DNA of 34,992 nucleotides. It comes from Flammeovirgaceae bacterium. GTDB taxonomy: Bacteria; Bacteroidota; Bacteroidia; Cytophagales; Cyclobacteriaceae. The notes below the pieces were generated by a model. That model saw only the letters and a list, made by a program, of their open reading frames with translations, searched no databases and was not told the origin of the DNA. Shown in pieces: positions 8,561 to 15,152 of the stretch (its first letter is position 1; every line of letters starts with the position of its first letter). The translations under genes were made by a program, and so were the position numbers. The stretch spans positions 1 through 34,992 of the forward strand of contig JAAUQD010000014.1 of NCBI GenBank assembly GCA_012032815.1. Reading direction: 5' to 3'.

Positions 8561-10750
8561 TTAATTACTTCCTGTTACCCTTGGTTCAGGATGAGTGGCA
8601 TATCGATCAAAAAATTCAACAATGCGAACCAGTCGATCCATCATACGTCTTGGGTTTCCACTACGTGACAATTCATGCCCTTCACCCGGATACCGGACGT
8701 ACTCAACGGGCCTGCTCAATATCTTCAAACTCTTGTACAACATTTCACTTTGAATTACTCCCGTGCGCAAATCCTGATCGGAGTGCATGATTAACAACGG
8801 AGTTTTAATCTGATCCACAAAAGTCATCGGAGAATTGGCATCCAGAATTTTTTTTGATTCATCATCCCAGGGGTATCCACCAAAATAATCCGGTACCAAG
8901 CGCCAGGCATTTCCTTCACCCATAAAAGTTGAAAGCTCATAAACACCGCGTTGGCAGTTGGCCGCTTTGAATCGTTGATCCTGGCTGACCAACCACGCTA
9001 CCATATAGCCGGCATAACTTCCTCCGGTTGTAAAATACTGATTGGTGTCAATCCAGGAATATTTTTTGGCTGCATCATCCAGTGCGGCAAGAATATCGTT
9101 GGCAGGGCCTGTTCCCCAGTCTTTAAAATTTCCTTTTTTGAAAGCGTCTCCATAACCTCCGCTGCCCCGCGGATTGCAAAATACAAGTCCGTATCCCCAA
9201 TTCACTTGCATTTCAAATTCGTGCCACATTGAAAATCCTGCGGGGCCCCACATGGCAGTTGGTCCGCCATGAATGTTTAAAATCGTGGGATACTTGCTTC
9301 CCTCTTTTCGATTGGCGGGTTCAATTACCCAGTATTGCACCTTCATTCCATCGGGTCTTGTTACCCAATGCTCTTTTGGCAGCAGAACATTCTTTTCATT
9401 TACCCAATCATTAAATGCAGTGATCTGCCGGTTGCTTTTATCTTTTGTGGAATGCACATACACTTCCCATGGATTTTTAAATTCAGTCAGCGCATAAACA
9501 ATTCTGTCGTTTTTAATGTCATAATCATTTACTCCGCTATCCTCACCGGTAATCTTAGTGGCGTTGCCACCTTTTGCACTCACGACAAAAAGGGGTGCAT
9601 CACCTTCCGTTTGCGCTACAAAATAGACTGACTTTCCATCGCCCGACCAAAGCGCGTTGCCTGCATCCCGGTCGAAGTCTTTAGTCAACACCTGTACGCT
9701 ACTTCCATTGGCGTTGGCCGTAGCCAGATCTGACTGACGGGCCAGGAATCCTGCTCCCGTTTGCACACCAAACAAAATGCTTTTTCCGTCCGGAGAATAA
9801 GAAGGACCAAAAGCGGGCTGATCAGGAATATTGATGATCTCTTTTAACTCACTGCCATCACTGCGCATGGTCCAAATAGACGAGTGCCGGTTATAGTCGG
9901 GAGATTCGGTGTAGCGGGTCGAGCTGCAAATAATGAAGTTGCCATCGGGTGACCACGTTGCACCGCCAAAACTTTGAAACCCTTTCGTGATCTGAATCGC
10001 TTCAGCTCCTTGTTTAAAATCCACAACAAACAAATGGCCAAACTGCTGATCAGTTTGTAAGTCTTGTTCAGCCTGAAACTGAAGCTTATTAATAACACGA
10101 GGATTTTTCTCATTCGCATTCTTAGCCAGCCATGCACGAATCTCTTCTGTGCTTCCATCAGGAGATGCCTTAATGTTTTTCTTTTCTTCATCCTTTAAAT
10201 TTTTCCAGTCGGGTTCATCCTTGAAAGTCCTTCCGGGCCTTTCGTAACTCCACGGTACATTTCCCTCAATTTGAGTCATTCCAATTGAAGCACTAAATAA
10301 AATTTTTGTTCCGTTTGGTGACCAGCGCGGCCCCGAAGCGCCATATTTTGATTTAGTCAACGGATAGGCTTCCCCACCCATCATGGGCAAAATCCAGATT
10401 TGAGCTTTGTCACCATCTCTACGGACGAACGCAATATGCTTGCCATCCGGTGACCAGGTAGGCTGACTGTCATTCTTATCTCCGTATGTCAGTTGCACAG
10501 GTTGTTGATTGCCCACCAGATCAAGGGTGTACAAATGGCGGGTGTAATAATATTCATCCTCTCCTTTTTTGGCTTTCCGGGTAACGACACAAATTGCCCT
10601 CGTTCCATCAGGAGAAATCTGAAGCTGATCGGTGGTCACGATCTTCATGACATCCGAAGCTACTATTGGTTTTTTTGTTTGTGCGAATGCTGCCGGCAGA
10701 AGTAAGAATAGAATGAGCCATACGATGGAGAATTGTTTTATTGTTTTCAT
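8561..10750 (-). CDS. Exported S9-family prolyl-oligopeptidase-like peptidase
   Basis: A 729-residue serine peptidase of family S9 (dipeptidyl-peptidase 5 / acylaminoacyl-peptidase type). Signal peptide: MKTIKQFSIVWLILFLLLPAAFAQ. Residues of about 30-440 form a beta-propeller with repeated WSPDGKxIxF-type blades (TWSPDGKHIAFV, RWSPNGTKILFS, YSPDGKSILFG). The alpha/beta-hydrolase domain follows. The nucleophile is Ser578 in TGGSYAGYM, with Asp660 in HSDQDLRT and His692 in GEGHELSRSG. The frame is intact. Its ATG overlaps the stop of the upstream S9 gene by one base (TAATG), so the two are translationally coupled. Role: likely periplasmic degradation of peptides released by other proteases. Confidence 0.93.
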   Translation of the reverse strand: MKTIKQFSIVWLILFLLLPAAFAQTKKPIVASDVMKIVTTDQLQISPDGTRAICVVTRKAKKGEDEYYYTRHLYTLDLVGNQQPVQLTYGDKNDSQPTWSPDGKHIAFVRRDGDKAQIWILPMMGGEAYPLTKSKYGASGPRWSPNGTKILFSASIGMTQIEGNVPWSYERPGRTFKDEPDWKNLKDEEKKNIKASPDGSTEEIRAWLAKNANEKNPRVINKLQFQAEQDLQTDQQFGHLFVVDFKQGAEAIQITKGFQSFGGATWSPDGNFIICSSTRYTESPDYNRHSSIWTMRSDGSELKEIINIPDQPAFGPSYSPDGKSILFGVQTGAGFLARQSDLATANANGSSVQVLTKDFDRDAGNALWSGDGKSVYFVAQTEGDAPLFVVSAKGGNATKITGEDSGVNDYDIKNDRIVYALTEFKNPWEVYVHSTKDKSNRQITAFNDWVNEKNVLLPKEHWVTRPDGMKVQYWVIEPANRKEGSKYPTILNIHGGPTAMWGPAGFSMWHEFEMQVNWGYGLVFCNPRGSGGYGDAFKKGNFKDWGTGPANDILAALDDAAKKYSWIDTNQYFTTGGSYAGYMVAWLVSQDQRFKAANCQRGVYELSTFMGEGNAWRLVPDYFGGYPWDDESKKILDANSPMTFVDQIKTPLLIMHSDQDLRTGVIQSEMLYKSLKILSRPVEYVRYPGEGHELSRSGNPRRMMDRLVRIVEFFDRYATHPEPRVTGSN

Positions 10751-12843
10751 TATTTTTTGGTTTCTGTTTTCGATTCGGTAATAGGGAGTTCGATTTCTTC
10801 GTTCCAGATGTACTTGTTAAACCATTTTAGATTGTGCCAGTTTGCGGCCAGCCTTTCTTTTGGTTTGTTGATGCCATGACCAAAGCCTTTGTACACGACC
10901 AATTCAGCGGGCACTCCTTTGTCGCGCAAACCCTGAAGCAACTGGTACGCATTAGGAATGGGAACCCGTTGATCAAATTCTCCGTGTTGAATAAGTGTTG
11001 GTGTTTTAGCCTGATTGATGTACGTCATGGGCGATGTCTTTTTGTAAATCTCTTCATCACTCCACGGAGTAGCTTTTAAATACTGCCGGGTAAAAGGATG
11101 AATGTCTGTATTCACATAATACGTCATCCAATCAGAAATTCCTGCTCCTACCGAGATGGCCTTGAACACATCAGAAGTTGTTGTTAAGAATGCAGAGATA
11201 TATCCGCCCTGGCTCCAGCCCATACATCCCATTTTTGATTTGTCTATCATTCCCTTGGAGTCAAGATATTCCACGCCTGATAACACATCCCATGCATCAC
11301 CCACACCAAGATTTTGGACATTCAATGAGCGGAAAGCTTCGCCATATCCGGCTGAACCGCGATAATTAGGTCGCAAAACCAAACACCCTTTGTCCAGCCA
11401 TTGCAAAACCGGATATACACCACCCGGTAAAGGAGTTGGAGAATCAATGCCGGTCGGACCGCCATGGATCATGACCAGCAACGGATATTTTTTCTTTGGA
11501 TCATAATCCTGCGGTTTGTGCAAGACCCCTTCTATTACTGCCCCGTCCCTGCTCTTCCAGGAGATCACCTCACTCTGTGCGGTTTTCCAGTTATCAATTT
11601 GCGAAGTCATGTCTGTGATTTTTGTAACCTGCGTAACAGGAAACGTGGTTCTATAAAGCTCTGTAAGTTGATTGCCATTGCGTCCACTAAAAATCAACTG
11701 CTTTCCCGATAGTGAAACATCCACATTAAAAACCATTTCAGGCAACCCCGCCAGTTCTTTATAATCTCCGTTCGTAGGATTGATGTGATACAAGGGTCTT
11801 CTGGTCTTGTTCCATGCGCTAACGAAGATGCCCGTGGGTCTCCAGCTAAAACCCGCACCCAAATCCTCATCCAGTTTGGCTGCGATTTGTCTTGACTTCT
11901 TATCTGAAATATTCATGATCATAACTTTCGCATTTTTATAATAATTCGAAAGTGTGTCATCCAGACTGGTGGTGTATAAAATTTCTTTTGAATCGGGCGA
12001 CCAGGCCTGAAGTGCATCTGCGCTTTTGTGTGAAACAAGAAGTTCTGTTTTTTTTGATTCGAGATCGAGTATAGAAATATCCGATTTAAAAAATGAATTG
12101 ATCAATGGATCGGGTTGATGATTATAGGCAATTTTTTTTCCTATCCGGTGAAATAAAGATAACTCCCAACCGTAAACTTTCCTTCTGTTAATCGTTTGCC
12201 CCTTGGAAACTCAATGCATCCTGCTTTTACTTTCAGCGAATCGACTGTTTCATAACAAGGCAATTCACTTGGATTAATGGCATCGGCAGAAAAATCTACC
12301 TGCCACAAATGATTTAATCTGAACTCCTGATCATCCACCGAAAATCCACCGTAACGTTTTTCAGTTTCCTTTTTTGATTTATCTTCTTTCTCGGATTTGC
12401 GAAAAACAAAACTCTTTCCTGAAGGATGCCATTCAAAAGAAGAAATTCCTTCTTCTTCATTGGTAACCTGCCTGGCCTCACCTCCCTGTACACGTATTAC
12501 ATATATCTGGGTTTTATTTCCACGATCTGCCAGAAATGCCAGCCATTGCGCTTTATTGGGTGAAAACGCTGGGCTCGTGCTGCTACCTTTGGCTGTGTTT
12601 GTAAACTGAAACGGGGTATCCCCATTTTTTGAAATCCAGATTTCATTATCCGAACGGTTTTCATTCCAATCAGTTGTTTGAACATTGTGAGCAATATAGG
12701 AACCCTCAAACCCGGAAGTCACGCTTCCGATACTTCGAAGTGAAAGTGTTTGCTCAATAGAGGGCACAATTTTTTTGTGCGCTTACAGAAAAAGACATTG
12801 TCGCAATCAACAATATCAGAAATGATCCTGCGTTTATCTTCAT
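10750..12843 (-). CDS. Exported S9-family peptidase, interrupted by three indels
   Basis: A second S9 peptidase of about 690 residues after repair. The signal peptide MKINAGSFLILLIATMSFSVSAQ starts at ATG 12843. The frame breaks in the T7 run at 12770-12776, where one base too many gives a premature stop. It breaks again between 12131 and 12161, where all three frames each carry part of an ISPDGKKIAYNHQPDPLIN propeller motif, so at least two indels are needed. Beyond this the frame is open to 10750. The hydrolase domain has HGGPTGIDSP, nucleophile MGWSQGGYIS, acid HGEFDQRVP and base GFGHGINKP. Either a pseudogene or, more likely, consensus errors, since the fragments show no other decay. It is upstream of, and overlaps by one base, the next S9 gene. 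Confidence 0.88.
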
Positions 12844-13322: not shown

Positions 13323-13399
13323 AAATCAACCCTGTCATGCTATTACGCCATCCGCTTGACATTCATTATTAAGCCATTCATCTTTTAAACCTTTGGCTT

Positions 13400-13435
13400 T
13401 CCGTATTGTCTAAACACCAAACAAAACAATACGGA
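13400..13435 (+). promoter_or_regulatory. Inverted repeat at the 5' end of the pentapeptide-repeat gene
   Basis: A perfect 10-bp inverted repeat, TCCGTATTGT and ACAATACGGA, separated by 16 A-rich bases. An ATG (13437) follows one base later and the likely in-frame ATG (13448) is 12 bases further on. In RNA it would form a hairpin directly before the start; in DNA it could be an operator. There is no T tract right after it, so it is not a simple terminator. A weak TTGACA (13356) and an ACCTTTG word (13389-13395) lie upstream as possible promoter elements. Confidence 0.5.
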
Positions 13436-13447
13436 TATGAAAATGTA

Positions 13448-13783
13448 ATGATTTTCGCGGTGCTTGGATTTATGATGATTTCAGCTGCCGCATTGGGACA
13501 AGATCGGGTAGCTAATGTAGATCGATCACAACAAATTGATCGCGCACAATACGCCAGGCTTCAGCAAGTGCGTGTTCAGCAAGCCAGACTTGATCAGGTT
13601 GATTTAACACAACAACGGATCGAGCAGGCTCGAATGAAGCAAGCCCGGATAAAACACGCTCGTGTAAAACACGCCAGAATCAAGCATGCGCGAATTAAAA
13701 ACGCACGCATCAAACATCAACGTATAAAAAATGCCAGGATTAAAAAAGCAAGAGAAGATGCCGCGTCCGGTGGTGACAATTAA
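13448..13783 (+). CDS. Secreted, highly basic pentapeptide-repeat-like protein
   Basis: A protein of about 111 residues. A hydrophobic N-terminus MIFAVLGFMMISAAALGQ looks like a signal peptide. It is followed by DRVANVDRSQQIDRAQY and then about 13 five-residue units of the form [AVQ]-[RD]-[ILVM]-x-[QHNK]: ARLQQ, VRVQQ, ARLDQ, VDLTQ, QRIEQ, ARMKQ, then ARIKH-like units to ARIKK. Small Ala at i-2 and Ile/Leu at i match pentapeptide-repeat beta-helices, but the usual Asp/Asn is replaced by Arg, giving ladders of Arg, Lys and His. Acidic residues return at the tail (REDAASGGDN). The start is uncertain. An ATG at 13437 would add MKNV with a positive charge if the A4 run after it had one more A. 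Function unknown; polyanion binding is a guess. Confidence 0.7.
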   Translation: MIFAVLGFMMISAAALGQDRVANVDRSQQIDRAQYARLQQVRVQQARLDQVDLTQQRIEQARMKQARIKHARVKHARIKHARIKNARIKHQRIKNARIKKAREDAASGGDN

Positions 13784-13800: not shown

Positions 13801-13823
13801 AAGCCCCGAGAAAATCGGGGCTT
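13801..13823. terminator. Bidirectional intrinsic terminator
   Basis: A perfect 9-bp stem AAGCCCCGA / TCGGGGCTT with loop GAAAA, followed by TTCTTATTTT on the plus strand and preceded by AT-rich sequence usable on the minus strand. It lies between the ends of the convergent pentapeptide-repeat gene and the M20 hydrolase gene and can serve both. Confidence 0.85.
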
Positions 13824-13843: not shown

Positions 13844-15152
13844 TTATTTGCCCGTCTTCGCCAGGTATTCCATTGTCAGATTCAGCATCGTTCGCACACC
13901 CAGCAGCATTCCGCTTTCATCGATAAAAAAATCAGGCGTGTGGTGCGCAGCTGCTTTTTCAGAGTTTTCATCTTTGGGCATTCCGCCTAAGAAGAAAAAG
14001 AAGCCTGGTACTTTTTGATGCAAAAAAAGAAAAAATCCTCCGCGCCAGTTACCGGATTTATTACAACAGCATTTTCTTTACCTGCAACCCGCTCAAGAAT
14101 AGGAGCCGACCAGGCGGTAAGTGCCGGATCATTATACGTAACCGGATAACCACGATTGATGTTTACTTCTGCAGTTGCCCAGCGCTCTCTGCAATCTTAG
14201 TGGCGGTGACTTTTATCTTCTCATGCACTTTGTCCTGCATGTCGTTATCCAGTGTACGTATCGTCCCAATCATTTCCGCTTCTTCAGGAATAATGTTAGA
14301 TCGAACTCCGCTCGTAAACTTACCAACAGTAATGACAGCCGCTTCTTTCGTCAGTTCAGTTTGCCGGCTGATGATCGTTTGTAATCCCAAAATAATCTGT
14401 GAGGAAACAACGATGGGGTCTACACCCATCCATGGTGCCGAGCCGTGCGACTGGCGGCCCTTTACCTTAATTGAATACGAATCAGAAGCCGCTAATAGTC
14501 CTTCTGGCTTATAGGTGATCACTCCAACAGGTGTTAACGAACTTATATGTAACCCAAAAACAGCTTCTACTTTGGGATTGTCAAGAGCACCTTCTTTTAT
14601 CATTAGTGCAGCACCTCCTTCTTCACCTTCAGGAGCCCCTTCTTCAGCCGGTTGAAACAAAAACACTACAGTACCGCTGATCTCTGACTTCATCTTAGAA
14701 AGCACTTCGGCTACTCCCATCAGAATCGCAATGTGTGTATCGTGACCACAAGCGTGCATTACTCCCACATCCTGATTTAGGTAAACCGACTTTTCTTTTG
14801 ATGCAAAGGCAAGGCTGTTGCGTTCTGTAACCGGCAAGCCGTCAATATCTGCCCGGAGAGCAATGACCCGTCCGGGTTTTGCGCCTTTCAGAATTCCAAT
14901 TGCTCCCGTTTTAGCCACCGGATACTTCACTTCAAGTCCAAGAGATGTCAAGTGCTCGGCTATCCGTGCTCCGGTTTTATATTCACGGTTTGACAATTCA
15001 GGATATTGATGAAAATGTCTACGCCATTCAATAACCTTTTTTTCAATCTCTTTTGCTTGTTGATCAAGCTTGGCTTGTACTTTTGTATTGATTTGTGCAT
15101 GTGCCGTAAAAACGCTTACAAAACACAACAGGATAATGGAAATGTTTTTCAT
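13844..15152 (-). CDS. Exported M20-family amidohydrolase, two frameshifts
   Basis: A zinc amidohydrolase of the M20 (IAA-amino-acid hydrolase / N-acyl-amino-acid hydrolase) family. Signal peptide MKNISIILLCFVSVFTAHAQ. The metal-binding motifs are HACGHDTH (Cys135, His137), FQPAEEG (Glu170, Glu171) and GLHIS (His202). The dimerisation domain includes KGRQSHGSAPW. The first open stretch stops early at 14163. Repair by one G at 14178-14180 continues as ATAEVNINRGYPVTYNDP. A second break in the A7 run at 14022-14028 restores KVPGFFFFLGGMP, then AAAHHTPDFFIDE, ending YLAKTGK at 13844. The repaired length of about 436 residues fits the family, and the C-terminal HHTPDF carries the last expected metal ligand. 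Likely cleaves N-acyl amino acids in the periplasm; the exact substrate is unknown. Confidence 0.88.

Follow-up and report, generated by a model that had tools for sequence, protein, structure and literature searches.

The window analysed here, a 34,992-nt stretch of genomic DNA, encodes at positions 13448-13783 of the forward strand a small protein made largely of basic five-residue units. The question that this locus raises is whether such a protein is an exported pentapeptide-repeat beta-helix, as an initial annotation had it, or something else, and with which other genes it may be expressed.

A basic five-residue repeat and its family

The pentad-repeat ORF (13448-13783, +), taken from its first in-frame ATG, encodes 111 aa. 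A linker joins its hydrophobic leader to thirteen five-residue units (residues 36-100; 13553-13747, +, as read from the protein sequence), and the short tail AREDAASGGDN ends the chain. Units 1-7 are ARLQQ, VRVQQ, ARLDQ, VDLTQ, QRIEQ, ARMKQ and ARIKH, and units 8-13 are ARVKH, ARIKH, ARIKN, ARIKH, QRIKN and ARIKK. Identity at a lag of five residues in the mature protein is 0.46, against a shuffled mean of 0.10 with 0/2000 shuffles reaching 0.46, and identity at a lag of seven is 0.00, i.e., there is no heptad. The initial annotation had counted about 13 such units in a very basic protein, and both points stand: the ORF is present with 13 units, far above chance, and the net charge (K+R-D-E) is +16 with a pI of 11.7. 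Tandem Repeats Finder returned 0 rows for the gene and the codons differ among the 13 units, so the five-residue pattern is maintained at the protein level. Downstream lies a terminator-like hairpin of 9 pairs followed by a T-rich stretch (13801-13823, +), found in a terminator scan of the window that returned three such sites against 0.8 expected.

We would like to note that the window protein was analysed from 13448, unrepaired. An ATG at 13437-13439 (+) aligns with the start of the orthologues (MKKV...) and is one base out of the repeat frame; since further ORFs in the window also seem disrupted, a sequence error here is possible. The M20 peptidase (amidohydrolase) gene at 13844-15152 (-) looks broken, its N-terminal part being open at 14163-15152 and its apparent C-terminal end lying at 13844-14023 in another frame, and together with the out-of-frame start at 13437 it gives a hint of indel errors, or of decay, in the assembly. 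An S9 prolyl oligopeptidase ORF (10750-12105) adjoins a PD40 beta-propeller ORF (12141-12767), both on the minus strand, as if one gene (10750-12767) had been split by a frameshift. The leader of the pentad protein was judged by eye from sequence and alignment: a signal-peptide-like hydrophobic segment (13448-13498, +) ends in ...AALG and is followed by QDR, of which Q and R are invariant in the family alignment. The description of the protein as exported is thereby supported at the level of its leader, export itself being a prediction.

Six orthologues, in G025, G017, G058, UBA2338, G169 and G253, bring the family to seven members (the G058 orthologue is the same protein as that of UBA2371); the named records of these relatives are Flammeovirgaceae and Cyclobacteriaceae MAGs. 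All six have the same leader and repeat, which is closed by REDAA or RLDAA. Across the seven members the number of units is 11, 11, 13, 16, 16, 16 and 23, the pI is 11.1-11.7, lag-5 identity is 0.24-0.47 vs 0.08-0.11 when shuffled, and lag-7 identity never exceeds the shuffled mean. Over the 106 family units, position i is hydrophobic (I/L/V/M/F) in 105, position i-1 is Arg in 98, Asp in 6 and Lys and Ala in 1 each, and position i-2 holds Ala 59 times and Lys 20 times; the 13 units of the window protein have 9 Ala, 2 Val and 2 Gln at i-2, with Lys in 0/13. Gly is absent from the repeat units of all seven. In the four of 21 family pairs with a computable dS, dN/dS is 0.047, 0.085, 0.132 and 0.267.

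A contig scan of genomes with the window protein alone as query found no relative, and a search with an alignment of three members did find relatives. At genus level the gene is sporadic, in 4/62 genomes; the further matches L021-L024 (E 1.9e-4 or weaker; L023 read in part) were rejected, since they read as pentapeptide proteins of the ordinary kind that also have transmembrane parts. A family-level search of 196 genomes gave matches at E <= 0.001 in 15, three of which (the window's, G169 and G253; E < 1e-20) were accepted as orthologues, the remaining 12 being weaker (E 4e-9 to 8e-4; some of them read). A class-level search of 395 genomes gave matches in seven, with only the window's own accepted and the six others rejected by eye as DNA repeats, antisense frames or ordinary pentapeptide proteins. 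At three loci, L050, L052 and L056, which belong to two genomes of another family, a 15-base DNA repeat translates into RLKDS/SRLKD-like units, and such repeats imitate pentad proteins in profile searches. The pentad gene adjoins a gene that, from its sequence, we take to be mnmA (as with similar neighbour names), on its upstream side, in G025, G058 and UBA2338, and in G017 it is one gene further away with the same genes preceding. Around mnmA in the window's genome there is no pentad gene, and the neighbours in G169 and G253 are different, mnmA not being among them.

Predicted fold of the repeat

Pentapeptide-repeat proteins can be recognised by at least eight contiguous units together with a PF00805 score above cut-off, and the window protein has 13 units and scores 24.2 bits against a gathering cut-off of 20.2, which bears out the pentapeptide-like size pattern initially described. 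None of 10 scrambled or phase-permuted copies of the protein matches PF00805 or PF13599, so the size pattern is real. Nevertheless, two of the phase-permuted controls score 28.9 and 21.5 bits with the unrelated histone-like family HC2 (cut-off 40), and 24 bits is therefore weak for a sequence of this kind. Within the family, PF13599 matches 6/7 members and PF00805 5/7 (E up to 10), and the family profile matches pentapeptide structures, designed and natural (4yfo, E 4.9e-10; 2j8k, E 3.6e-05).

The right-handed beta-helix proposed in the initial annotation did not emerge from structure prediction. AlphaFold2, given a 7-row alignment (pTM 0.38-0.39), predicts for the window protein a single helix over residues 2-108 (mean pLDDT 76.8, with block means > 90 at residues 61-100) and for the G058 orthologue helices over residues 25-52 and 56-151 (mean pLDDT 79.3). 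The quadrilateral right-handed beta-helix that marks pentapeptide proteins is thus missing from the models of both members, a result that, given the 7-row alignment, is not final; a helix or disordered chain is the very outcome that the initial annotation had named as speaking against its own model. AlphaFold2 tends to draw helices for K/R/A-rich repeats. The unit VDLTQ (13598-13612, +) may mark a break or N-cap between two helices, according to the alignment and the G058 model. Its counterparts are PDLTQ, ADLTQ, TDLTQ or PDFTQ in 5/6 orthologues and LRISQ in G253, such that an xDLTQ or xDFTQ unit, in which Asp replaces Arg at i-1, is found in 6/7 members, the window's included. The helix break of the G058 model, at residues 53-55 (QPD), coincides with this unit, which would suit a helix N-cap, and the window protein model has no break there.

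The i-2 position points into the core of known pentapeptide structures. Lys occupies it in 20/106 units of the pentad family vs 3/306 interior units of 28 ordinary pentapeptide matches, these being stretches taken from Pfam match positions in proteins of the relatives (30 loci minus L078 and L084), some of which may be two stretches of one protein. From the models and these counts, the pentad protein is likelier to be a helix, or partly unfolded, than a beta-helix.

With the pentapeptide proteins (PF00805; HetL, Rfr32, MfpA/Qnr) the family shares five-residue units with Ile/Leu at i and, in part, small residues at i-2, and Rfr32 too has a signal peptide, according to the accessible part of a review (PMC8145042). 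It differs from them in having Arg at i-1 in 98/106 units, no Gly and a pI above 11, in the Lys at i-2 of the orthologues and in its predicted helix. The initial annotation had also held that acidic DNA mimics make up most of the known pentapeptide proteins, a view at odds with that same portion of the review, where an explicit biochemical function is known for two cases and DNA mimicry is the property of the MfpA/Qnr group (PMC8145042).

A promoter-like element and the genes behind it

Upstream of the pentad gene is an ECF-type promoter-like element (13385-13413, +), seen also in the relatives and consisting of TTAAAC (13385-13390), 17 nt and GTCTAA (13408-13413). In the form TTAAAC-N17-RTCTAA it lies upstream of 7/7 family genes, although their loci differ, and it begins 51-64 nt ahead of the start; all seven members thus carry the element at promoter distance, as would be expected for targets of an ECF regulon. 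The AAC of the first box and the TCNAA of the second resemble ECF promoters. A perfect 10-base inverted repeat, TCCGTATTGT...ACAATACGGA (13400-13409 / 13426-13435), overlaps the -10 box of the pentad gene; it was dropped as a shared element because 0/6 orthologues have it. An ECF-type motif of Flavobacterium psychrophilum, derived from mapped transcript starts, has a CGT box at -10, as given in the part of the study available to us (PMC9723704), in contrast to the TCTAA of the window element.

By count alone, TTAAAC-N17-RTCTAA is not enriched in six genomes (22 sites vs 19 for the reversed control); 5/22 of these sites directly precede an ECF sigma gene, in 5/6 genomes. The longer form TTAAACC-N16-GTCTAA has 61 sites in 39/60 genus genomes, and the reversed pattern 24 sites in 19/60. 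All 61 motif sites and all 24 control sites were fetched and read by script, and an ORF start was found 10-60 nt downstream of 53/61 motif sites vs 3/24 controls. The genes after the 53 sites are 20 ECF sigma genes, 32 genes for exported-like proteins and 1 other, so that, as read from sequence, the ECF gene and the exported-like proteins have the promoter-like element in common. The 32 comprise 5 basic proteins with the motif RQKAQR, 4 acidic DADD lipoproteins, 2 pentad genes and 21 others; "exported-like" here follows a simple hydrophobic-stretch rule under which a small number of calls, L137 for instance, are doubtful and two of the three control ORFs also score. Eight motif sites lack an ORF start at 10-60 nt, at three of them (L120, L135 and L139) because the start is further off.

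The 20 ECF genes, in 20 genomes, resemble that of L109 (BLASTP E up to 1e-5), whose product matches Sigma70_r2 and r4_2 in Pfam (one scanned). In 6/6 loci read, the window's own genome (L106) among them, the operon order is ECF sigma factor, a protein with a single hydrophobic span, and a Spy-like, exported-looking protein with an LTPEQAEKFWP-like sequence. The single-span membrane protein (one scanned) matched no Pfam family, and the Spy-like protein (one scanned) falls below the Pfam cut-offs for Metal_resist (24.7 vs 29.2 bits) and LTXXQ (17.2 vs 24.3). The 7 pentad members together matched 15 families, and the LTXXQ (Spy) profile is not one of them.

Other genes behind the same promoter include those of the acidic DADD lipoprotein family (L099, L102, L104, L129, L135, L139 and L143; pI 4.5-5.7), which carries, e.g., VEFDNADDF or EDSYFDDADD near the lipid anchor; L135, the one scanned, had no Pfam match. 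The single genes at L093, L118, L124, L140, L154 and L161 encode a DUF4382 lipoprotein, a DUF6515 protein and further small, basic, exported-looking proteins, and one lipoprotein among them resembles, by eye, a cytochrome c peroxidase.

The proteins with RQKAQR...IRR form a second exported-looking, very basic family, found in 28/60 genus genomes in a search with a five-protein alignment (L115, L125, L142, L153, L164 and L193-L219; pI 11.4-11.8 across five computed members); one protein was scanned and had no Pfam match. Six of the 28 genes were already known through the motif, leaving 22 as an independent set, and 16/22 have the motif with <= 2 mismatches at -40 to -54. The exceptions are L198 (motif only at -121), L201 (3 mismatches), L207 and L216 (5) and L219 (6), and L220, not located, is counted among the six without motif. 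When the upstream regions of 20 RQKAQR genes were shuffled, 0.05% of the shuffled sequences came within 2 mismatches of the motif at any position of the 150 nt. The -10 box is GTCNAA in most of these genes. Homology between the pentad and RQKAQR families was looked for and not found (BLASTP E 0.91; hhalign probability 7%, owed to the signal peptide). Mutual exclusion of the two was rejected, since 3/4 pentad genomes of the genus also have RQKAQR.

Known systems and the explanation favoured

Asr of E. coli, described as an intrinsically disordered periplasmic chaperone in the accessible part of its report (PMC10746267), likewise has a leader followed by a repetitive basic chain. The Asr profile NF033636 gives 3/7 pentad members 19-26 bits over most of their length, the best being 26.0 bits for the L005 orthologue against a cut-off of 50, which places the family outside NF033636; for the window protein no match to this profile was listed. 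Ile/Leu at intervals of five residues is not known as a feature of Asr. MXKDX repeat proteins (TIGR02953) are exported, and like the pentad family they are small and built of pentad repeats. They work by sacrificial Met oxidation, whereas the pentad family has few Met, and TIGR02953 was listed for 1/6 orthologues scanned, at 7.2 bits (E 4.8) against a cut-off of 41, well outside that family. An MXKDX repeat protein that adjoins an ECF sigma/anti-sigma pair is homologous to the hypochlorite scavenger MsrX, going by the available part of the source (PMC8315932).

What the genus operon shares with CirY/CirZ-Spy of Phocaeicola vulgatus is its gene layout. In that system, as far as the accessible text of the study goes (PMC13114119), an ECF sigma gene, an anti-sigma gene and a spy gene are co-transcribed, the sigma factor raises itself, and removal of the anti-sigma factor raises sigma and spy; the EcfO regulon of EcfO-Reo-NigD has surface lipoproteins. 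The same text mentions a basic pentad protein for neither system (PMC13114119). Another Bacteroidota anti-sigma factor, Dma2, governs vesicle formation according to the part available of its report (PMC13088901). A non-exhaustive literature search for such a regulon or motif returned, among the entries listed, no title or abstract opening that describes the TTAAAC/GTCTAA promoter pair.

With modest confidence, we favour the explanation that the pentad protein is an exported polycationic rod, helical or unfolded, belonging to an autoregulated ECF regulon that probably answers envelope stress. Behind its signal peptide a short helix would lead, through a D-L-T break, into a long basic helix built from five-residue units, possibly partly unfolded in solution, with Arg, Lys and Ile/Leu distributed all around the rod and not on one face. 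Its gene would be transcribed alone from TTAAAC-N17-RTCTAA, and the likely regulator is the ECF sigma factor that has the same promoter and stands in an operon with an anti-sigma-like membrane-anchored protein and a Spy-like exported protein; this sigma factor would be the one that reads the sites. Damage to the envelope, presumably the stress signal, would release the sigma factor from its membrane partner, and the freed sigma factor would raise expression of the operon that encodes it and of a group of exported proteins. The pentad protein may then coat polyanions of the stressed envelope and so protect it, as Asr or Spy do; phosphorylated lipid A or LPS, nucleic acid and unfolded acidic protein are the candidate targets. 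This protective binding role is drawn by analogy, with Asr as the nearest working model. Polyanion binding, suggested in the initial annotation, is retained here as a possibility; its beta-solenoid is probably wrong.

Other explanations have to be weighed against this one. The initial annotation's model, a true pentapeptide right-handed beta-helix with a basic surface, exported and binding a polyanion, would account for the PF00805 score above cut-off, the PF13599 and PF00805 matches through most of the family, the profile matches to 4yfo and 2j8k, the near-invariant hydrophobic i, the failure of all ten controls to match and the lack of Lys at i-2 in the window protein. We consider it unlikely, however, given that AlphaFold2 draws both members as all helix, that Lys is so much more frequent at i-2 in the family than in ordinary matches, that the repeats are without Gly, and that repeat profiles can inflate period-five scores, as the HC2 scores of the permuted controls illustrate. 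A secreted matrix polycation binding nucleic acid or LPS (histone-H1-like or an extracellular-DNA binder), mostly disordered and structural in role, would sit well with the high pI of all seven members, with the resemblance of phase-permuted period-five basic sequences to HC2 and with the variable repeat number (11-23 units); we find it rather unlikely, as the promoter shared with the ECF sigma gene and the Spy-like operon argues for a stress-induced supply, and the sporadic distribution (4/62 genus genomes) also speaks against it. That the gene is no more than a random or decayed reading frame within repetitive DNA is extremely improbable. Several class-level matches (L050, L052 and L055) are indeed, by eye, 15-base DNA repeats read in frame, but the pentad gene contains no DNA repeat, promoter-like and terminator-like elements flank it, dN/dS is well below 1 in the computable pairs, and the conservation of leader, repeat and REDAA/RLDAA end in six orthologues refutes this reading.

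A bolder extension of the regulon, which we hold to be quite improbable, is that the genus answers damage electrostatically. One sigma factor would release together several exported polycations that look unrelated to one another (pentad rods, RQKAQR proteins and others, most with a pI above 11) and the acidic DADD surface lipoproteins (pI 4.5-5.7). Polycations and lipoproteins would pair on the outer membrane or on vesicles shed from it, sealing or shedding damaged patches. The pentad rod would here be a five-residue helical screw with charge in all directions and no hydrophobic face.

For the pentad family, the favoured reading of an exported, helical or unfolded polycation carries a warning, namely that a basic repeat without Gly may be a helix even when Pfam labels it pentapeptide. 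For the genus, a single motif ties dozens of exported-like proteins, several of them without a known family, to an ECF sigma factor and its Spy-like partner, and what began as an odd sequence becomes a testable regulon within a Bacteroidota genus.
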